DNA of 64,000 nucleotides from Candidatus Aenigmatarchaeota archaeon (lineage in GTDB: Archaea > Aenigmatarchaeota > Aenigmatarchaeia > QMZS01), in the NCBI GenBank assembly GCA_016932615.1, contig JAFGCN010000009.1, positions 1 to 64,000 of the forward strand. Direction: 5' to 3'. The notes under the pieces were generated by a model. It did no database searches. It was given only the letters and a program-made list of their open reading frames with translations, and was not told the DNA's origin. Positions within the stretch are counted from its first letter, which is position 1, and each line of letters opens with the position of its first letter. Shown one piece after another: positions 50,195-63,319 of this stretch. Both the position numbers and the translations under genes were made by a program.

Positions 50195-51442
50195 TTAAAT
50201 CTGCTTTCTTGCTTTTTCTTCAGTTTCTTCCAGAAAACTGCCGTTTTGGGCAATCTGCGCCAGGAGCAGGTTTTCCAGATTTATGTTTGCCTGCCCGCTT
50301 TTCCCGTTTATCTTGAATGCTTTCGTGTAGAGGCCTTCTGAGTAGAGCGTTTCGATTACTGTAAGCCAGCCCTTGTTGTAAGGGAGGTAGGCGTCAAACC
50401 TCATGGCGTTGCCCCTCACCTTCCTGGAGATAACCCTGTAGCTGAGGCCGAACATGTCCATAAGCTCGAAAAGAAGCTTAGTGATCTGCTCCACTCTTGG
50501 GGCGTAGCCGGCGGGAGTCTCGAAAAAGGTGAGCAGGATTTTGCGGTTTTTTTCCGCGTAGAGGTAGTGCGGGCTTATGACTTTTCGCTTTTCAAGGGCC
50601 TTGTACAGGTTGAATGGAATTTCGTCGAAGACTACTCCCTTCTGGGTGGCTGAGAGGGACTTTACGTACCCGGTTATGAAGTACGCCTCGAAGAATTTCG
50701 GGTCGTCCTCGGTTTCGCAGAAAGTGTTGTTGAACGATTCCGGCGGCACAAGCTCGATTAATTCGGGGTTTTCAAGGAGGCCGAAAGAAGCGTGGCTTAT
50801 GGGGTAAAACTCTTCCAGCCGGAAGCTTTCGGAGAGCTTGTTTAGGACTTTATGCTTTATCTCGGTGATTTTTTCGGCGCCTTTGGGGAGGTAAAAGTAT
50901 TCCCCTTTTGCAAGCCCCCGTCTGGCAAGGTTATGCGTTTCCAGAATCTCGAAAGGGTTTTGTTTTGATGTGGTTGTAACGTCCTTTTTGCTGACAACTT
51001 TCCAGGCCTTTTCGGTTGCCTTGTCCTTAATCAGGTCTATGATTTTTTGCACGCCCCCGCTTCTTAAAAGGTCCTTTTCAAGGTCTTTGAAGACGACCTT
51101 GCACGTTTTGCCGTTGCATATGACAGTCTCCGTGAAGGGGATTTTGAGCTTTCCGACGTGCTCCAGGCCGAAGCTTATCTCATAGTAAGGAACGTAATAA
51201 TCCCGGACGCCAATCCTGTACTCCTTTCCCCATTCGGAGATTCTCTTTACAAGCGAGAGCATGAAGCGCGTGAGCTCCTCGGTTCCCTCCAGGGAGAGGA
51301 AAAGCCGGTTTGTGTTGCAGATTCCCCTCGTGTAGCGCTCTTTCGAGTACCTCTTTATCTTCTCCAGAAACCTCTTAGAAGCCACCTGTCCCAATTCCTC
51401 TGACAGCGCAACCGTAAGCTCCGCCTGCGAACTAAGGGGCAT
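50195..51442 (-). CDS. Unknown protein with possible degenerate class II aaRS-like fold
   Basis: 415 residues, no signal peptide. Two stretches recall class II synthetases: GEYFYLPKGAEKITEIKHKV (compare the F-W-L-P-K-G-A entry to motif 1) and LSYRVISRKVRG followed by MRFDAYLPYNKGW (compare the L-P-Y-R-V-V and Y-D-x-E-x-W-L-P region of SerRS). The catalytic arginine of motif 2 is not evident (LLTFFETP), so it is probably not an active synthetase. The link is inference from short motifs. Confidence 0.5.
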   Translation of the reverse strand: MPLSSQAELTVALSEELGQVASKRFLEKIKRYSKERYTRGICNTNRLFLSLEGTEELTRFMLSLVKRISEWGKEYRIGVRDYYVPYYEISFGLEHVGKLKIPFTETVICNGKTCKVVFKDLEKDLLRSGGVQKIIDLIKDKATEKAWKVVSKKDVTTTSKQNPFEILETHNLARRGLAKGEYFYLPKGAEKITEIKHKVLNKLSESFRLEEFYPISHASFGLLENPELIELVPPESFNNTFCETEDDPKFFEAYFITGYVKSLSATQKGVVFDEIPFNLYKALEKRKVISPHYLYAEKNRKILLTFFETPAGYAPRVEQITKLLFELMDMFGLSYRVISRKVRGNAMRFDAYLPYNKGWLTVIETLYSEGLYTKAFKINGKSGQANINLENLLLAQIAQNGSFLEETEEKARKQI

Positions 51443-51463: not shown

Positions 51464-51474
51464 TAATATAATTA
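51464..51474 (+). promoter_or_regulatory. TATA box of the tRNA-Gly gene
   Basis: taatataatta, centred 28 nt upstream of the tRNA acceptor start at 51497, the normal distance for an archaeal TATA box. Confidence 0.6.
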
Positions 51475-51496
51475 ATTACTTGGGCTCTATGATTAT

Positions 51497-51714
51497 GCGC
51501 TGGTCGTCTAGATGACCTGTATTTGCAAAAATACAGTTCTCAGGACATTGGCTATGATACCGGCTTGCCAAGCCGGCGACCCGGGTCAGACTTTCTTTCT
51601 TTCGCAAAAGAAAGAACTTCCGACACCCCAAAGAAAGAAAACGCGGTTAAAGCGGCTAGCTTACGACTGCGTTTATCTCCGGGGTGAAAGGGTTTTCGAA
51701 TCCCGGCCAGCGCA
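51497..51714 (+). tRNA. tRNA-Gly(GCC) with two introns (D-loop and T-loop)
   Basis: Exons at 51497-51511, 51549-51586 and 51696-51714 join into a complete 72-nt tRNA: acceptor gcgctgg/ccagcgc (7 bp perfect), D-arm gtctag + tggctatgat, anticodon arm ccggc-ttgccaa-gccgg (anticodon GCC, Gly), T-arm ccggg-ttcgaat-cccgg (perfect). Intron 1 (37 nt, 51512-51548) sits in the D-loop and folds as an 8-bp hairpin with a GCAA loop. Intron 2 (109 nt, 51587-51695) sits in the T-loop, with internal pairs such as cacccc/ggggtg. Boundaries are uncertain by 1-2 nt. The anticodon loop is uninterrupted. No CCA is encoded. Confidence 0.9.
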
Positions 51715-51792: not shown

Positions 51793-52404
51793 TCATAACA
51801 TTTTTCTAAGGAAATCAGTAGCAGTTAGCAAAATGATTGACCCCAGCATTATTGAAAACACTACAAGCAAAGAGTTAACGCTCAGTCCGTAGAATAGGGA
51901 TGCATTGCAGAATTTATTTTCGGTGAGAATTATTCCTAAGACAGAAATTAGTATGAGACCCACTATCCAAACAAATAGTTTTTGGACGGTATCTTTCAGT
52001 TCACTTTCCGTAGTCTTTAGATAAGAATGTAGGTCTATCCAGCCTTTGAGAAATCTCTTTATTTCGGGATCATTTTTCTGCTTTGACATTTTAGCCAGAA
52101 TCTTCAATAGATCTACTTTTTTGTTTTGCGGTCTGTAAGATTGGGTGATTTTGACTACATCAACCCACCAGGATTTCTGACGTTCTTTTATTTCTGAGAT
52201 CTTGAATATGAAAAACGTGCCAAATAAAGCTAAAAACGTGATAAATCCCTCTATAAATGATCCGTATAGCCAATAGGCTGCTTCAGGCCCTATAGTTAAA
52301 ATTTCTGAGGATATAAGGTAAGTAAAAGTAAGAGCAAGCAAGACTGATAGGAACACCTCTGGAGACCCTAGTTTTTTCGTTAAGTTTTTTGTGAATTTTA
52401 TCAT
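51793..52404 (-). CDS. Four-helix membrane protein of the accessory block, unknown
   Basis: 203 residues with two N-terminal hydrophobic helices (about 15-35 and 44-68), a long charged cytoplasmic middle (about 70-140) and two C-terminal helices (about 143-160 and 173-195). No family recognised. Codons favour A/T in the third position, unlike neighbouring chromosomal genes. It is divergent from the Trypco2-like gene. Confidence 0.6.
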   Translation of the reverse strand: MIKFTKNLTKKLGSPEVFLSVLLALTFTYLISSEILTIGPEAAYWLYGSFIEGFITFLALFGTFFIFKISEIKERQKSWWVDVVKITQSYRPQNKKVDLLKILAKMSKQKNDPEIKRFLKGWIDLHSYLKTTESELKDTVQKLFVWIVGLILISVLGIILTENKFCNASLFYGLSVNSLLVVFSIMLGSIILLTATDFLRKML

Positions 52405-52992: not shown

Positions 52993-54885
52993 ATGAAGGA
53001 TGACATAACCTCAAAGTATGAGCATAAAGCAGATGATCTTTTTGGGACATTAGAGATACTTAGAATAATTTTGGATTTAGATAAATTCCAGGCCTGGTTT
53101 AGCAAATCATACCAGAAGGATACTAGCGTATTGCTTGAAGGGTACAAATTATTCCTGGAAACCGCACTTCGGACTTTCTTTTACGAAATAGACTCTGACT
53201 GGTCTTTGGGATTGAAGGAAGACGCTATATTCTATCGAGCAGGTCATAGGGGAATTAATCTGGACAAAATCCCCAACACTTGTGAAAAAGTAATTCTGAT
53301 TAAAAATCTGGATAGTATGCGTAGAGATATTAGAAACTCAAGAAATTTTGATGAACTCTATCCATTAACCCAGAAGGTTAGGACTGAGTTGTTAGCCAGG
53401 TTTGTGCCAATCTATGATATGTTTGTTGAGGATAATCTGGGTTTCGGAAAGGATAATGCACTCAGGTATGCTGCGATGTTTCAAGCGCTAATCTTCTTCT
53501 CGGATACTTCTAAGAAGATACCCAAGGGTTATTATTTATTCTCACAAGTTGAGAGTCTTACGCGAAAGCAGTACAATGCTAGCTTTGAGGGATACAAATA
53601 CACCCTTCAATTCTTGTGGGAATCATTATTAGAGAAAGAATCCAAGCCTGAGTTCATTTCCGAAATGATAACTGCAAAAGATTGGTCTATAGATTTAGAC
53701 GTAGATTTCGAGAAGTTAGACGAATCTTTAGAAGCGCTAAAGGAGTCTCCTGGAGAAAGAGAAGACCTCGATAGTTATTTTGGGAGAATAAATGAAGGCC
53801 TCATTAAACCCTTGGAGAAAAGATTAAAATTTAAGTTCATTTCTCAGACGTTACTTTCCATTAAAACGAAGCCCCCCAAAGAGATATTTGGCTCTTTGCT
53901 AAATGTGCCTAAAATGGTGGAGCTAAGTGAGCAAGAGAAACTGAACTGCTTTCTTCTTTGGTATCCTATAGATTATCGTGATTCCTCTAAAGGGGGAGTC
54001 TTTAATGGTTCTTTAATGCTTATGTCCTTGATTGCAGGCTTTTCTGAAATAAAGGTCATGGACAACGTAGACTCTAAGGTTCAGGTCTGTAAATTCATAC
54101 ATCCCGTTGGATGGGCAAAGGATAAAAATGATTATAGCTATGGCATTTTGATTGAATCTTATGGCACATTTGGTTCAGATTTTTCTGGGTGGATTATGTT
54201 CTATGATTGCTGTGGAGATTATTCTGGATTTTCTGGAACCGAACATATGCAAATAGAAGCTATAATCGATTCCTATAAAAAACAAGGCTTAGTAGAGCTT
54301 AGGCAGATGACTATCGGCAAGAGTAGGCTTAGGAAGTATATTGCTAAATCAGTTGTAGGTGAGATATCTACTAAGATAGAGAACGAACTTGAGAAAACTT
54401 CTACGAAGAATAAAGAGCTATCGATAGTAAAGGATGCAAGAGGTTTGGTTAATGAATTATTCTCTTATTATATCCTCTCAAAACGCGATGGCTATGATGT
54501 GGATTGGAATGTTCATGCATCAGGCAAGCAGATAGATATTCGTTTAGAAAACGATGCTGAGGTTCTTTTGATTGAGTGCAAGGTTGACCCAAATAACCTG
54601 GACTTGGGTGATGAGCTACAACATCTTAAAGAGAGATTATCTCGGACTGATACTGAGAAGAAGAAACGAGGTATCTTTTGGTTTTGGGCTAAGCCTAGCG
54701 ATATAACTATTGATCGGATTGAAAAAGAAGGGTTTACCTGTGAGATTATTAAGAATCTCATTCAGAAAGATAGGCATATTAGTAAAAAGAAGCTGGATAC
54801 TTTAAGATATGTTCTCAATTACAAGGGAACTGCTGATAGGGAGGATTCCTTTGATAGTGATATGGGGATTCCTAGATCGATGTAG
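52993..54885 (+). CDS. 630-aa protein with C-terminal PD-(D/E)XK nuclease-like domain
   Basis: The last ~150 residues look like a restriction-endonuclease fold: a helix with Glu488 (VNELFSYYILSKRDGYDVDW), then Asp515 in GKQIDIRL, then Glu528-Cys-Lys530 in VLLIECKV, and Gln542 in the helix ELQHLKERL. This is the E...D-x12-ExK-(Q) order of Mrr-type nucleases. The first 460 residues are helical and then mixed, with no recognised domain. No membrane helix. The frame is A/T-rich with A/T third positions, differing from the chromosome around it. The context (tRNA gene, AbiE pair) suggests mobile defence. Confidence 0.68.
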   Translation: MKDDITSKYEHKADDLFGTLEILRIILDLDKFQAWFSKSYQKDTSVLLEGYKLFLETALRTFFYEIDSDWSLGLKEDAIFYRAGHRGINLDKIPNTCEKVILIKNLDSMRRDIRNSRNFDELYPLTQKVRTELLARFVPIYDMFVEDNLGFGKDNALRYAAMFQALIFFSDTSKKIPKGYYLFSQVESLTRKQYNASFEGYKYTLQFLWESLLEKESKPEFISEMITAKDWSIDLDVDFEKLDESLEALKESPGEREDLDSYFGRINEGLIKPLEKRLKFKFISQTLLSIKTKPPKEIFGSLLNVPKMVELSEQEKLNCFLLWYPIDYRDSSKGGVFNGSLMLMSLIAGFSEIKVMDNVDSKVQVCKFIHPVGWAKDKNDYSYGILIESYGTFGSDFSGWIMFYDCCGDYSGFSGTEHMQIEAIIDSYKKQGLVELRQMTIGKSRLRKYIAKSVVGEISTKIENELEKTSTKNKELSIVKDARGLVNELFSYYILSKRDGYDVDWNVHASGKQIDIRLENDAEVLLIECKVDPNNLDLGDELQHLKERLSRTDTEKKKRGIFWFWAKPSDITIDRIEKEGFTCEIIKNLIQKDRHISKKKLDTLRYVLNYKGTADREDSFDSDMGIPRSM

Positions 54886-55276: not shown

Positions 55277-55963
55277 ATGGATACCGTGACAATTTTGAGA
55301 AAGCTGGAGTCCAGGCCGGTTTTCAGGGTTCAGGACATAGAGCGGCTCTGCAACTGCGACAGATTATATGCAAGGCAGGTTCTCCACCGGCTTAAGGAGA
55401 AGGGGCATATAAGAAGGGTGACCGAGAACGCCTATACGACAAGCGATGACATTTACGCGATAGCAAGCAACATAGTAAGCCCAAGCTACATCTCTTTTTT
55501 CTCGGCTTCCTATTACCTTGGATATACCGAGCAGATAGTCATTTCAGTGCAGGTTGCAACGACCGTGAGGAAAAAGGAAATCCGCTTTGAGCATTACAAA
55601 ATAGAGTTTGTGCCGATGAAGCACTTTTTTGGCTACAGGAAGGTCAGCACGCCGAAAGGAGATACCTTCGTAGCAGAGGACGAAAAGCTTCTTATCGACT
55701 TGTTCTTGAAGCCGCAAAAGGCGGGAAACTTCGATGAAATAGAAAAGGTTTTCGAGGAGTCAAAAATCGATCCCGCAAAGCTCACTCAATACCTCAAGAG
55801 GGTTGGCAGCCAGTCGGTTACAAAGAGGGTGGGCTGCCTGCTGGAAAAGCTTAAAGGAATCGACCTGTCTAAGGAATTTTCCCTTGACAACAACTATGTA
55901 TTCCTCAACCCATATTCAAAAAAAGGAAAAACCCCCATAAGCAAGTGGAGGGTAAAAGTATGA
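55277..55963 (+). CDS. abiEi: AbiEi-family antitoxin
   Basis: 228 residues. An N-terminal winged helix (VFRVQDIERLCNCDRLYARQ) is followed by the antitoxin domain with SPSYISFFSASYYLGYTEQI, typical of AbiEi. Type IV antitoxins do not bind the toxin but oppose its effect, and they repress the operon. Its stop overlaps the AbiEii start by 4 nt (ATGA). Confidence 0.9.
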   Translation: MDTVTILRKLESRPVFRVQDIERLCNCDRLYARQVLHRLKEKGHIRRVTENAYTTSDDIYAIASNIVSPSYISFFSASYYLGYTEQIVISVQVATTVRKKEIRFEHYKIEFVPMKHFFGYRKVSTPKGDTFVAEDEKLLIDLFLKPQKAGNFDEIEKVFEESKIDPAKLTQYLKRVGSQSVTKRVGCLLEKLKGIDLSKEFSLDNNYVFLNPYSKKGKTPISKWRVKV

Positions 55964-56715
55964 TATCGAGAGAGGATTTGAGGGACTACGCAAGGATAAA
56001 AGGGCTTAACCTTGGGCAGGCGGAAAAAGACTATTTTCAAAACATTATACTTTTCATACTCTTTCAGGAGTATGGCAAAACACTTGTTTTTAAGGGAGGA
56101 ACTGCCCTAAGCAAGTGCTACGGCTCTTCAAGGTTTTCGGAAGACCTTGATTTTACCTGTGGGGAAGATTTCAGGCAGGATATTCTGGAAAGGGGGCTTA
56201 GGAGATTTGGGCTGGAATATTCAGTGAAGTTGAGAGCTTATGCGGTTGGGAAAAAGCTGACCTTGAGGATAAAGGGCCCTTTGTATATAGGCACTCTTCC
56301 AAGCCAGTGCACGCTTATTCTGGACATAAGCTTCAGGGAAAATATTGTACTTACCCCGGAGATAATTCCCCTTGGCAGTCTCTTGAAAGAGATCCCCGGG
56401 TTTAGCGTTTATGTGATGGACGAAAATGAAATCTTTGCCGAAAAAGTGAGGGTGATAATGACAAGAGACAAAGCTCGGGACGTCTATGACCTTTGGTTTC
56501 TGCTGGGCAAGGGCATCAAGTTCGACTTTGGGCTAATAGAGAAGAAGCTCGAATACTACAAAGACTCTTGGAGCAAGGGAAAATTCATAAAGGCGGTGCA
56601 GGACAAGGAAAAAATCTGGAAAACCGAAATGAAGCCGCTTATCGAGAATGTCCCCGAGTTTAAGGAAGTTAAATCCCTTATAGCAAAATCTCTTGAAAAT
56701 GGGCCTGCCGGGTAG
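55960..56715 (+). CDS. abiEii: AbiEii-family nucleotidyltransferase toxin
   Basis: 251 residues from the ATG at 55960. The nucleotidyltransferase motif GGTALSKCY (46-54) and, six residues on, the metal pair in SEDLDF (60-65) are intact, as is the later KVRVIMTRDKARDVYDLWF block. Characterised relatives transfer nucleotides to tRNA acceptor ends and block growth during phage infection. Codon use is closer to the chromosome than that of the A/T-rich block to the left. Confidence 0.92.
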   Translation: MISREDLRDYARIKGLNLGQAEKDYFQNIILFILFQEYGKTLVFKGGTALSKCYGSSRFSEDLDFTCGEDFRQDILERGLRRFGLEYSVKLRAYAVGKKLTLRIKGPLYIGTLPSQCTLILDISFRENIVLTPEIIPLGSLLKEIPGFSVYVMDENEIFAEKVRVIMTRDKARDVYDLWFLLGKGIKFDFGLIEKKLEYYKDSWSKGKFIKAVQDKEKIWKTEMKPLIENVPEFKEVKSLIAKSLENGPAG

Positions 56716-59650: not shown

Positions 59651-59723
59651 AACATTACTACCGAATATATAAAAGGGTGTAATCCGGAATCTATATTTAA
59701 CTAAAGCTTAGTACTCCTCTTTG

Positions 59724-60167
59724 CTATGCCTTCTTGGATTTTTCGATTACCCTTACGATGCTTGTCGAGATGGTAAGGGGAATAGGCACAACTGCTTCCA
59801 GAAGCTCGATTGTAAGCTCCTTTTTGGCTTCGTTAAGCCGGACAATCCTTCCCTTTTCGCCCTTGAACGGGCCGCTGAGGATTTCGATTATGTCGCCAGC
59901 GTCAAGCTCTATGGATGGCTTTTCCTTTTCAAGGTATTTCTTGATGTCTGCAATCGTAACCGGCTTTTTAATTATGCCTTTGACGTGGGGGGCTCCGTAA
60001 ATTGCCCGGTTTATGTCTTCCTGGTCTCCATCCAGGAACAAGTACCCTTTAAGCTCGTCAAGAAATATTATTGCGCTTATGTCGAGGTTTCGGATTCTTA
60101 TCTCATCCTCGATATATTTAAGGGCAATTCTCTCCCTTCCAATGACTACTCTAATAGGTACTATCAT
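59724..60167 (-). CDS. spt5: Transcription elongation factor Spt5
   Basis: 147 residues: an NGN domain (IAIIFLDELKGYLFLDGDQ region), then a KOW domain (LDAGDIIEILSGPFKGEKGR). Spt5 binds the RNA polymerase clamp with Spt4 and stabilises elongation. secE and rpl11, often neighbours in archaea, are not adjacent. Confidence 0.94.
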   Translation of the reverse strand: MIVPIRVVIGRERIALKYIEDEIRIRNLDISAIIFLDELKGYLFLDGDQEDINRAIYGAPHVKGIIKKPVTIADIKKYLEKEKPSIELDAGDIIEILSGPFKGEKGRIVRLNEAKKELTIELLEAVVPIPLTISTSIVRVIEKSKKA

Positions 60168-60273
60168 AATAGTTTTCTGAATTTTATAAATAGGTGGTCT
60201 GGGGTGCTTTTGCCGGGCATTCTGGCGTTTTTTGGTCAGTGCGCCAAGGTTTACTTTAAAAAGGGCTATTTTT

Positions 60274-61848
60274 ATGGACTACAAAAGCTACGTGCTAGCG
60301 TGCTTTTTGGTGGCGTTTTCTATGACGATTCTGGCAGTGGCAGAAGCTGCTGTATGCGATAGCGAGGGATGTACAGCGCAACCGTACTCACTAGCTGCTT
60401 CCAAATGCGAGCAAAATGGAGAGGCCTGCTGTTCTGCAAATGGGTGCCTGACGGCAAAGCTTGAATGCGCTTCCGGGAAAGTGCCTGTTTTCAGGGGCTG
60501 CAGCTCCAACTGCTACCCTGTGTGGGCATGTGTCCCATCTGACAGGAACTGCACTTCGGACAGGAACTGCACGGCCTTTGCTTCAACAACCGAGTGGGCT
60601 TTCTGCCAATTCCCTGAAGGAACTTGCGGCGGCGAAGGGGTATGCGTGACTGTAAGTAAGCAGTCGGGTTGCTCTCAGGATTACGAGCCGGTGTGCGGGT
60701 GCAATGGCAAGAGCTACTCGAACAACTGCACACTGATGCAGGCAAGAGTTTCACTGAACTACACTGGCGTCTGCAACAATTCACGGCTTTGCGCCAAGGA
60801 AGGCCAGCTTACAAGCGGCACAGTAAACAGCAACTATTTTTACGGATGCTGCGCCTCGCTTGAAGGCTTTGACATAAACGCGTCAGTAGGAAAACTGCTC
60901 TGCTACAATAAGAGCCTGGGCACTCCAGAGTGCAGGAATAACGGAACCCGCTCAGAGGGCTGGTACTACAGCACTGCGGGAACCCTTTTGAGGTACGACA
61001 ACTGCGCGAAAGTGCAGGTGCCGCACTGCAAATCCGATTCCGACTGCAAAAATAATCCAGGGGATCACCCGAATTGCAATGGAGAGTGGGCCTGCATTGC
61101 GGGCCAGTGCATCTGGAGGTGCAAGTACAACCCAAAAAACTGCACCTCCTGCCTTGACGGAACCGCCTGCGGCCAGAACAACTCGAAGGGTCTGCAGTGC
61201 GTGTGCAAAGACGCAAACAGCGACGGCTCTAATGAGCAGTGCTCTCTCCAGTTCCCAAAAAGGACCTGCTCTGCCTGCTCTGACGGAACTGCCTGCGGAA
61301 GCAAAAACAGCAAGAACCGAACATGTATCTGCAGGGACACTGACAAGGATGGCCTGAATGAAATATGCGTCCTTGAGGCGCAAAAGTATACCTGCTCTGC
61401 CTGCTCTGACGGAACTGCCTGCGGCCAGACTAATTCAAAGGGCCTGCAGTGCACTTGCAGGGACGTCGACAATGACGGCTCAAGCGAGTTTTGCGCGCTT
61501 TTCAGGGTTCCAACCCCTTGCGAAAACTGCTCTGACGGGACAAAGTGCGGTGAAACAAACAGCAAGGGCCAGGTTTGCAGATGCTCAGAAAAGAAAAATG
61601 ACGCCTACTACTCCTGCCGGCTTGTATACAGCCCCGGAAAGGCGCAGGATAGGCACTGCACTGCCTGCTCTGACGGGACCGCCTGCGGCCAGAAAAATAG
61701 CGCCGGCAATACCTGCATATGCGTAGATATCAACAGGGATAAAGGAAATGAGCTTTGCCGCACGGTTAAGGGCGATGTAGGCACTGCGAAGTCCTCATAC
61801 ACTCTGACTGAATTCCTGGACCTTTTGATGTCTTTGATTGGCAGGTAA
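60274..61848 (+). CDS. Secreted Cys-rich protein: Kazal domain plus five Ca-type repeats
   Basis: Start at 60274 (MDYKSYVL), signal peptide about 1-27. Residues about 133-167 fit a Kazal protease-inhibitor domain: C-S-Q-D-YEPVCGCNGKSYSNNC followed by a Cys 14-15 residues later. Five tandem 42-46-residue repeats then run about 290-495: C-x-x-C-(S/L)-DGT-x-CG...NS-(K/A)-G...C-x-C...D-x-(N/D)-x-DG...C. The D-x-D-x-DG loops in several repeats look like calcium sites. A hydrophobic end may anchor it. Probable outer-surface role; inhibitor target unknown. Confidence 0.8.
   Translation: MDYKSYVLACFLVAFSMTILAVAEAAVCDSEGCTAQPYSLAASKCEQNGEACCSANGCLTAKLECASGKVPVFRGCSSNCYPVWACVPSDRNCTSDRNCTAFASTTEWAFCQFPEGTCGGEGVCVTVSKQSGCSQDYEPVCGCNGKSYSNNCTLMQARVSLNYTGVCNNSRLCAKEGQLTSGTVNSNYFYGCCASLEGFDINASVGKLLCYNKSLGTPECRNNGTRSEGWYYSTAGTLLRYDNCAKVQVPHCKSDSDCKNNPGDHPNCNGEWACIAGQCIWRCKYNPKNCTSCLDGTACGQNNSKGLQCVCKDANSDGSNEQCSLQFPKRTCSACSDGTACGSKNSKNRTCICRDTDKDGLNEICVLEAQKYTCSACSDGTACGQTNSKGLQCTCRDVDNDGSSEFCALFRVPTPCENCSDGTKCGETNSKGQVCRCSEKKNDAYYSCRLVYSPGKAQDRHCTACSDGTACGQKNSAGNTCICVDINRDKGNELCRTVKGDVGTAKSSYTLTEFLDLLMSLIGR
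61141..61758 (+). repeat. Five in-frame tandem Cys repeats within the secreted protein
   Basis: Repeats of about 126 nt (the last spacing is 138 nt) encode C-x-x-C-S-DGTACG units beginning near 61141, 61267, 61393, 61519 and 61657. Repeats 1, 2, 3 and 5 are closest; repeat 4 lacks the Ca-type loop. Confidence 0.8.
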
Positions 61849-61882
61849 TTTTATTTTTGAATCTTTTTTTATCTTTATAGGT

Positions 61883-62848
61883 ATGAGGGCACTAGGCATA
61901 GAGTCAACTGCGCACACGTTTGGAATCGGGGTTGCAGATGGTGAAACAAAGGAAATATTGGCCGATGAAAGAGTTTCTTACAGGCCTGAGTCGGGGATAA
62001 TACCTGCCGAGTGCGCGAGATTTCTTAAGGAAAATTCTTCAGCGGTTCTTGAGAATCTTGAGAAAAGAGCGAACCTTTCTGAAATTGATATTGTGGCGGT
62101 TTCCGTTGGGCCGGGCCTGCCACCCAGCCTGTCTTTTGGGCTTGATTTTGCAAGGGGCTTGGCAAAAACTTTGGGTAAACCCCTCTACGGCGTAAACCAC
62201 TGCCGTGCCCACATAGATGTGGGGGTATTTCTTACTGGCTGCACCGACCCGGTTGTCCTTTATGTTTCCGGAGGGAACACACAGGTAATCTATTACAATG
62301 ATGGCTACCGGGTTTTGGGGGAGACCCAGGACATTGGAATAGGAAACGCAATTGACAAGCTTGGAAGAATCATGGGGCTTAAGTTTCCGGCAGGGCCTAA
62401 AATTGAGCAAATGGCAAAGAGCGGAAAATTCATTCAGCTTCCCTATTCTGTAAAGGGCATGGACCTCAACTTTTCGGGCATACTGTCGGACTGTGTTAGG
62501 AGACTTGGCTCACTGGATAAGGATTCTCTTGAGCAGGGATATGCTGACCTCAGCTACTCCTTTCAGGAGGTGTGCTTTTCCATGCTTACCGAGGTGACCG
62601 AAAGGGCGATGGCGGCGATGAACAAGCGCGAGCTTCTTCTGGTCGGTGGGGTTGCCCAGAACAGGCGGCTCCAGGAGATGCTTGAGCTGATGTGCGCTGA
62701 GAGGGGCGCCCGGCTGTTTGCAGTGCCAAAGGAGTATGCAGGCGACAATGGGCCCATGATTGCGGTTTCAGCTCTTTTAAGCCATAGGAAAAAGGAGTAC
62801 GAAAACCCGGCTGACATAAGGCCCAACTGGCGGCTTGACCGGCCTTAA
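61883..62848 (+). CDS. kae1: Kae1, catalytic subunit of the KEOPS tRNA t6A complex
   Basis: Transfers threonylcarbamoyl to A37 of ANN-decoding tRNAs. Start at 61883 (MRALGIESTAHTFG); the upstream ATG at 61838 overlaps the previous gene. VSVGPGLPPSL, the metal motif NHCRAHID, YVSGGNTQVI and the final DNGPMIA are all conserved. Length 321 is the stand-alone form; the Bud32 kinase fusion common in archaea is absent. Confidence 0.96.
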   Translation: MRALGIESTAHTFGIGVADGETKEILADERVSYRPESGIIPAECARFLKENSSAVLENLEKRANLSEIDIVAVSVGPGLPPSLSFGLDFARGLAKTLGKPLYGVNHCRAHIDVGVFLTGCTDPVVLYVSGGNTQVIYYNDGYRVLGETQDIGIGNAIDKLGRIMGLKFPAGPKIEQMAKSGKFIQLPYSVKGMDLNFSGILSDCVRRLGSLDKDSLEQGYADLSYSFQEVCFSMLTEVTERAMAAMNKRELLLVGGVAQNRRLQEMLELMCAERGARLFAVPKEYAGDNGPMIAVSALLSHRKKEYENPADIRPNWRLDRP

Positions 62849-62854
62849 GGGCAG

Positions 62855-63319
62855 TTACTTGGGCTTAGAGGATTTTTCAAGGAATTGTTTTAGCAGTTTT
62901 GAAGACTTTTCTTTCTGGACGCCAGATAAAATCTCCAGGTCTTTTCCAATTCCATTTTTCCTGAGGATATCGAAGGTTTTCCTAGTCCCGTATTCTTTAT
63001 GTTCTGTGCCGTATACTACCTTTTTGGCTCCCGAATATACAATTGCTTTAGCGCACATGAGGCAGGGCTCGATATTTGAGTAGATGGTGCAGCTTTCAAG
63101 AAATCTGGATTTCAATTTTCTGCAGGATTTGCTGATTGCAATAAGCTCTGCATGTGCAGTTGAATCATTTTTTGTTATCCCAAGGCTTCCCGATTTGGCA
63201 ATGACTCTTCCCTGCTTTACCACAACGCACCCTGCGGGATAATCCCCCCTGGATAGGGCTTTTTGCCCCTCAAGATTTGCAAGGTTCATGAAGTAAAAGT
63301 CATCTTTCCGATCTTCCAT
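62855..63319 (-). CDS. Nucleoside deaminase (guanine/tRNA-adenosine deaminase-like)
   Basis: Zinc deaminase motifs HAELIA and E-PCLMCAKAIVYS are present, in the spacing of the TadA/guanine deaminase subgroup. Length 154 is typical. The family removes ammonia from purines or pyrimidines; exact substrate unknown. It converges with kae1, 6 nt apart. Confidence 0.85.
   Translation of the reverse strand: MEDRKDDFYFMNLANLEGQKALSRGDYPAGCVVVKQGRVIAKSGSLGITKNDSTAHAELIAISKSCRKLKSRFLESCTIYSNIEPCLMCAKAIVYSGAKKVVYGTEHKEYGTRKTFDILRKNGIGKDLEILSGVQKEKSSKLLKQFLEKSSKPK

Follow-up and report, generated by a model that had tools for sequence, protein, structure and literature searches.

The tRNA-Gly(GCC) gene at 51497–51714 of the window (the whole 64,000-nt stretch of DNA that was analysed) raises the question of whether a tRNA gene cut in both the D loop and the T loop can be functional, and where such introns come from. 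Direct reading of the sequence gives three exons and two introns (Table 1), and joining the exons, GCGCTGGTCGTCTAG|TGGCTATGATACCGGCTTGCCAAGCCGGCGACCCGGG|TTCGAATCCCGGCCAGCGCA, yields a 72-nt tRNA. The original prediction of a 37-nt and a 109-nt interruption at non-canonical positions, with an intact anticodon loop between them, is borne out. The cloverleaf, which had been called perfect, is restored on removal of both introns but is good rather than perfect, with a T·T mismatch at 13–22 and a G·T pair at 10–25 in the D stem. ARAGORN reports no tRNAs in the window; it calls tRNA-Gly(GCC) on the hand-spliced form, one D-loop nucleotide differing from the exon join. A purpose-written C program (the scanner), which joins acceptor, D, anticodon, variable and T parts and allows introns scored for bulge-helix-bulge (BHB) motifs between or inside them, ranks the 37-nt and 109-nt intron pair first for this gene with 58.9 bits.

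Table 1. Features of the tRNA-Gly(GCC) locus, in window coordinates, and loci of the reversed intron repeat.
Feature	Position	Strand	Basis or remark
Candidate TATA box, AT-rich TAATATAATTAATTA, centre ~26 nt upstream of the gene	51464–51478	+	Sequence only, putative
Exon 1, tRNA positions 1–15	51497–51511	+	Scanner; 7-bp acceptor stem with exon 3
Intron 1, D loop, 37 nt; follows A14 G15 (second D-loop nucleotide)	51512–51548	+	Scanner; absent from G009 L135
Intron 1 BHB: central helix 51506–51509 (GTCT)/51543–51546 (GGAC), bulges AG|A and AT|T	51501–51554	+	4/4 central pairs
Intron 1 BHB, outer helix (five pairs)	51501–51505/51550–51554	+	Sequence read
Intron 1 BHB, inner helix (TGA/TCA)	51513–51515/51540–51542	+	Sequence read
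Intron 1 hairpin, 8 bp, loop GCAA	51517–51536	+	Minimum-free-energy fold
Exon 2: remaining D arm, uninterrupted anticodon arm (GCC), variable loop and 5′ T-stem half	51549–51585	+	Scanner
Intron 2 (53/54), 109 nt	51586–51694	+	Scanner; position shared with other tRNAs and G009 Gly(GCC)
Intron 2 relaxed BHB: 51580–51582 (CCC)/51690–51692 (GGG), then G51583·A51689 mismatch; bulges GG|T and TT|T	51577–51698	+	
Intron 2 BHB, outer helix (CGA/TCG)	51577–51579/51696–51698	+	Sequence
Repeat-model (R1) match in intron 2	51594–51640	+	23.2 bits, E 8.5e-5; only one in window
Pyrimidine arm Y TTCTTTCTTT of the intron 2 repeat hairpin	51593–51602	+	
Purine arm P1 AAAGAAAGAA	51607–51616	+	Pairs with Y over CGCA loop
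Third strand P2 AAGAAAGAAA, parallel complement of Y	51631–51640	+	Antiparallel fits equally in this copy; rule set on other copies
Second hairpin of intron 2, closed by CACCCC 51624–51629/GGGGTG 51681–51686	51624–51686	+	Fold
Exon 3: position 54 onwards of the T loop, 3′ sides of the T and acceptor stems, A73; CCA not encoded	51695–51714	+	Scanner
Reversed repeat at start codons	L181, L184, L191, L194, L197, L173 (G011); L163 (G003); L060 (own genome, C11:42445)		

A decaying pseudogene or an assembly error is hardly credible at this locus. The genome (G000) is a 29-contig draft and the D stem does hold the T·T mismatch, but every pair forms in the acceptor, anticodon and T stems, and the anticodon, T loop and GG18–19 are intact. 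The finding named beforehand as speaking against a working gene, a separate intact tRNA-Gly(GCC), is not detectable in the genome, which holds a single full-length copy of the exons. Moreover, in the relative G009, a genome from the same family, tRNA-Gly(GCC) (L135 1474–1631) has the same mature pattern: its D stem is the identical GTCT/TGAT, its D loop (GTCTAGTTGGTTATGATA) is unbroken, and its 53/54 intron measures 85 nt. Because this ortholog shows the D arm unbroken, the mature D arm of the window gene is taken to be real. Intron 2 probably predates the split of the window genus and the G009 genus, since both genes are interrupted at 53/54, whereas intron 1, having no counterpart in G009, would be either a gain on the window lineage or a loss in G009.

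The BHB search that had been suggested as a check finds a motif at both junctions, strict in the D loop and relaxed at 53/54. The predicted D-loop site is a textbook BHB, with a 4-bp central helix and two 3-nt bulges; the unconstrained fold of the precursor includes the central helix, and forcing the BHB register costs 2.4 kcal/mol. Cuts at intron 1 would fall behind the second nucleotide of each bulge, the arrangement seen in the ARMAN-2 enzyme-RNA structure (PMC12397907). The GCAA-capped hairpin, previously placed at the end of intron 1, is located mid-intron. At 53/54 three of the four central pairs form, and the minimum-free-energy fold of the full precursor does not contain this BHB, which comes at a cost of 5.9 kcal/mol when imposed; the same relaxed site (CCCG GG| with AGGG) is common to four tRNA genes of this genome, Gly(GCC), Asp(GTC), Glu(CTC) and Glu(TTC). 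Two other boundaries for intron 2 were rejected: 3-nt bulges GGG/TTT on an ACCC/GGGT helix leave the T arm two nucleotides short, and use of CCGGG 51679–51683 as exon would require an 11-nt second intron. No Rfam family exceeds its curated threshold in the window, and at these thresholds the introns have no match to a group I or II catalytic core.

Interruption extends to the whole recovered tRNA set of this 1.26 Mb, 97% complete genome, of which 1,263,243 of 1,263,699 bases were analysed. With acceptance at 45 bits or more the scanner identifies 38 tRNA genes; the reversed genome gives 38 matches of at least 36 bits under looser settings (the best at 41.8), and under the first settings neither the reversed nor the complemented genome has any match of 40 bits or more. 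Tracking the intron repeat described below added two genes, one for Ser(TGA) and one for an initiator-like tRNA-Met(CAT). All of the ~40 recovered genes are interrupted, and tRNA-Gly(GCC) is not a special case because interruption is the rule for every tRNA found. Standard searches recover far fewer (eight tRNAs with the Rfam tRNA model, and eight with ARAGORN allowing anticodon-loop introns). A SPLITS-like route (strict BHBs, splicing, then ARAGORN) was dropped: with multiple introns so common among the genes, it gave just 13 region bins, several of them duplicates or doubtful. The recovered set is incomplete, since the scanner missed the Lys and Pro tRNAs despite the 97% completeness; longer introns, or a split or permuted arrangement of these genes, may account for the gap. 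Among open-licence papers, none was found that describes a fully interrupted tRNA set in Aenigmatarchaeota.

The 38 scored genes contain 68 introns: one in 16 genes, two in 15, three in six and four in one, such that 22 genes have two or more. The four-intron gene is Tyr, for which three is more likely, the last two pieces being one intron. Position 37/38 is used 21 times, 59/60 14 times, the D loop 12 times, 53/54 11 times and 54/55 four times, and the others are single. A four-pair central helix is present at 58 of the 68 sites, a count best read as a maximum since BHBs raise the scanner's score, and the remaining 10 are relaxed with three of four pairs.

Several members of the set have unusual features. 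A tentative tRNA at C17:42105–42231 (+) has a long variable arm, anticodon GTC and an apparent 42-nt intron at 3/4; its membership is doubtful, and it could represent a pseudogene or a tRNA of unusual type. Unless its intron boundary differs, the initiator-like tRNA-Met (C4:16862–17053, +) seemingly has C rather than T at position 33 (loop CCCATAA). A tRNA-Leu (C10:42073–41841) and its counterpart L148 in G004 are read with anticodon AAG, and A34 in a tRNA-Leu is unusual for archaea. The window itself contains a TadA-like deaminase gene (62858–63319, −) beside TsaD (61838–62845, +), whose product matches NCBIfam TadA with E 1.3e-28, under the equivalog cut-off, and has HAE and PCLMC motifs. 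Conversion of A34 to inosine-34 in tRNA-Leu is suggested by these sequences, and its link to the deaminase is weak, since searches of other family members did not recover the protein.

The genome encodes the two enzymes that would process these precursors, each by a single gene: EndA (L001, ~287 aa) and RtcB (L217). At the catalytic positions of the alignment EndA carries tyrosine, histidine and lysine; it also has an acidic and lysine-rich N-terminal extension of ~110 residues, and it aligns best with the alpha4 EndA of M. jannaschii and the alpha subunit of N. equitans EndA. Its seven nearest records, 71–77% identical over the aligned part, are all named Ca. Aenigmatarchaeota or Aenigmarchaeota, a group that falls within the kingdom Nanobdellati (DPANN). 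Searches recovered no beta subunit: G000 and each of nine matching family members have one PF01974 gene, and beta queries from families f6 and f14 retrieve the alpha gene alone. An (alpha-beta)2 enzyme takes genes for both subunits, which are adjacent in class families f6, f11 and f14, and no such pair was found in G000. EndA is thus apparently a lone alpha-type subunit, from which we infer an alpha4-type homotetramer. It does not contain the ASL segment of ARMAN-2, and an ASL-like loop is not seen in the 4fz2 alignment. The single-domain alpha subunit of N. equitans (PDB 3iey chain A) is of the same type and shares a basic insertion before the catalytic histidine (KKGKRS, KRGPKS here) that is absent from M. 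jannaschii; however, the N. equitans enzyme is (alpha-beta)2 (PMC6379350), whereas no beta gene was found in G000. Efficient cutting of relaxed BHBs is restricted to (alpha-beta)2 and epsilon2 enzymes, alpha4-type EndA having a narrow specificity for the canonical BHB (PMC6379350, a review), and alpha4 and alpha2 lineages have few introns, at the canonical position (PMC4090602, a review). Either the lone alpha EndA would be broader in specificity than expected, or a partner may have diverged too far to be detected.

Intron 2 had been described as long and structured, which agrees with its strongly structured fold and with its membership of a structured repeat family. Alignment of the introns shows that most tRNA introns of the genome, intron 2 included, carry one 5′ module regardless of tRNA or position. 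It consists of a pyrimidine arm (Y), a short loop, a purine arm (P1), a linker and a second purine strand (P2); a hairpin capped by UUCG often comes next. Stems are mostly 6–10 nt, the first loop is mostly 3–4 nt and the second is ~5–15 nt (14 in the window copy). The Y:P1 hairpin is U/C-rich, and P2 mirrors the 3′ arm P1, which makes it the parallel complement of Y (e.g. T5CT2 with A5GA2, T2CT4 with A2GA4, and T4CTC with A4GAG); the window copy is compatible with parallel and antiparallel readings because its tract is nearly symmetric.

The mirror rule is evident in the run lengths. Among 43 introns of this genome the first runs are equal in 37 (r 0.90, against −0.21 for the antiparallel reading), and the 32 asymmetric introns include 29 parallel and no antiparallel-only cases. 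Over this and other genomes, 126 of 152 distinct copies have equal first runs compared with 63.7 in within-genome shuffles, a test that overstates independence because copies of one repeat are related; asymmetric copies are 81 parallel to 7 antiparallel. The rule recurs in other families (T2CT5/A2GA5 in G015 and T5CT2/A5GA2 in G030), run lengths vary within each linker type, and P2 as a direct, antiparallel copy of P1 is rejected for the family by the run-length tests. It is unlikely that the mirroring is a by-product of low-complexity purine tracts within a single repeat and structurally meaningless, the introns being ordinary BHB introns. The copies are indeed all A/G and T/C tracts of few distinct patterns, related by descent, and some break the rule (the seven antiparallel-only copies, and others in G005 and G010); nonetheless, run lengths co-vary within several linker types and families, the asymmetric and shuffle counts both favour mirroring, and the other pyrimidine hairpins of the genome rarely have a third strand of either kind.

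The model of the module (R1) is of sequence only because RNAalifold on a MAFFT alignment of the modules gave no consensus pairs, probably through misalignment of the tracts. Rfam has no match for the repeat; four intron or repeat loci give sub-threshold matches at E up to 1, none of them to group I or II, and no description of the repeat was found in the open-licence literature. R1 has 57 matches in G000 at E up to 0.01, matches 22 of the 31 genomes in the relatives set (a count that includes G000), and matches 59 of 145 class genomes at E up to 0.001. In other genomes the repeat is present in 59/60 introns of several tRNAs and in the anticodon-loop intron of a tRNA-Met-like gene.

Copies are also located outside introns. 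In G000 and G008 the repeat directly follows tRNA-Cys, and beside the tRNA-Gln, Val and Arg genes of G000 (C17:41693, C11:13367 and C18:33927) it is flanked by 8–9 nt repeats of tRNA 3′ ends. At tRNA-Ser(GCT) (C7:138478) the 11-nt 3′ end recurs 98 nt downstream. These four sets of tRNA-end repeats look like insertion footprints. Other copies are positioned at stop codons (G030, G027, G021, G061, G133 and G033), and reversed copies lie 3–6 nt before start codons, in G011/G003 at genes for uS3 (in two families), eL19, an L7Ae/L30e-type protein, uS12, Rpp14/Pop5, an aminotransferase and a DUF460 protein, and in G000 at an RFC-like gene. The reversed copies in G011 have a near-fixed GGGATTTGTTATG junction. 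The reversed repeat is a candidate mRNA leader motif, in whose transcript the purine arm of the hairpin would run parallel to a pyrimidine strand on the 5′ side, the classical U·A-U arrangement. Occurrence in many tRNAs, at gene borders and between tRNA-end repeats points to mobility at the DNA level.

Placement of the introns as protection from integration, i.e. D-loop and T-loop introns sited to deny integrases their tRNA target, is very improbable. T-loop introns do split the usual 3′ attachment region, and the flanking repeats at three other tRNAs suggest past insertion at tRNA ends. However, T-loop introns are the norm here, many tRNAs have introns at 37/38 and in the D loop, and the Gln, Val and Arg genes show flanking repeats although they carry T-loop introns. 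In addition, the genome has no second copy of the tRNA-Gly(GCC) exons or ends, including the 3′ end, that could serve as an attachment site, and the downstream proteins tested have no match to integrase families.

The gene neighbourhood includes AbiEi/AbiEii, a rhomboid-like gene and a glycosyltransferase gene, and Pfam gives no match for four ORFs (51796–52404, 52993–54882, 59721–60359 and 60232–61845). The AbiEi/AbiEii type IV toxin-antitoxin pair is downstream of the tRNA (55277–55960 and 55945–56712, +). The divergent neighbour (50198–51442, −) encodes a 415-aa protein that has a tRNA-binding domain (PF18490) and weakly resembles a seryl-tRNA synthetase family; it is conserved in nine of ten family members searched, and a genome-contig search with this protein recovered no relatives.

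The locus is thus very probably a single working tRNA-Gly(GCC) gene, interrupted twice and spliced, with a repeat-derived intron 2 and belonging to a genome-wide set of interrupted tRNAs. It would be transcribed as one precursor, cut by EndA at the D-loop BHB and the relaxed 53/54 BHB, and joined by RtcB to give a mature tRNA without either intron. Intron 2 would hold a structured element that is widespread in the class and may have spread by transposition, its 3′ end fitted to pair with the exon such that EndA can remove it. The Y:P1 hairpin and P2 could form a three-stranded fold in DNA or RNA, the likeliest reason for conservation because P2 keeps the parallel complement of Y. A more tentative proposal, for which the odds are somewhat below even, is that a class-wide mobile three-stranded element is the source of most of the tRNA introns: it would insert at tRNA genes and gene borders, copies in tRNAs would become harmless as a BHB evolves with the exon, and reversed copies would be reused as start-codon leaders of ribosomal-protein and other genes with a U·A-U/C·G-C RNA triple helix.

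If correct, these interpretations describe an archaeon outside the Thermoproteales in which no uninterrupted tRNA gene was found, with genes hidden from standard annotation and an apparently alpha-only EndA, and would loosen the accepted tie of non-canonical introns to (alpha-beta)2 or epsilon2 EndA. The repeat is a concrete candidate for the origin and spread of tRNA introns, with some outside copies flanked by tRNA-end repeats, and the parallel third strand is a clean sequence rule that is testable with short oligonucleotides.

The closest structural parallel is BoxC/TMECO of E. coli, a dispersed repeat and class II intrastrand triplex with the same Y, R, R(H) single-strand order, in which the second purine strand mirrors the first as in the intron repeat (PMC4666352). 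The class II order, with the third strand antiparallel to the purine arm, is found in the intron family, the window copy being ambiguous in orientation. The ITxF search definition has stems of 6–15 nt and loops of 1–6 nt (PMC4666352), and the intron repeat, with a linker of ~5–15 nt, falls outside it; it is also A/T-rich where BoxC/TMECO is G/C-rich, and has copies inside tRNA introns. A DNA-level role, or an antisense or mRNA-leader form, is likelier than a triplex in the intron RNA because purine-motif triplexes cannot form in RNA (PMC4666352).

The tRNA introns of Thermoproteales (Pyrobaculum, Thermofilum) likewise have BHB-type sites in the D loop and at 37/38, 53/54 and 59/60, with up to three per tRNA and similar introns across different tRNAs (PMC3218864, PMC4033280, PMC4090602); they are interpreted as transposed (PMC4033280), and the quoted record is more than 70 introns, in P. 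calidifontis (PMC3218864). In contrast, G000 belongs to the DPANN (Ca. Aenigmatarchaeota), has no EndA beta gene that was found and has an intron in every recovered tRNA gene, and its introns share one structured repeat that is present outside tRNA genes too.
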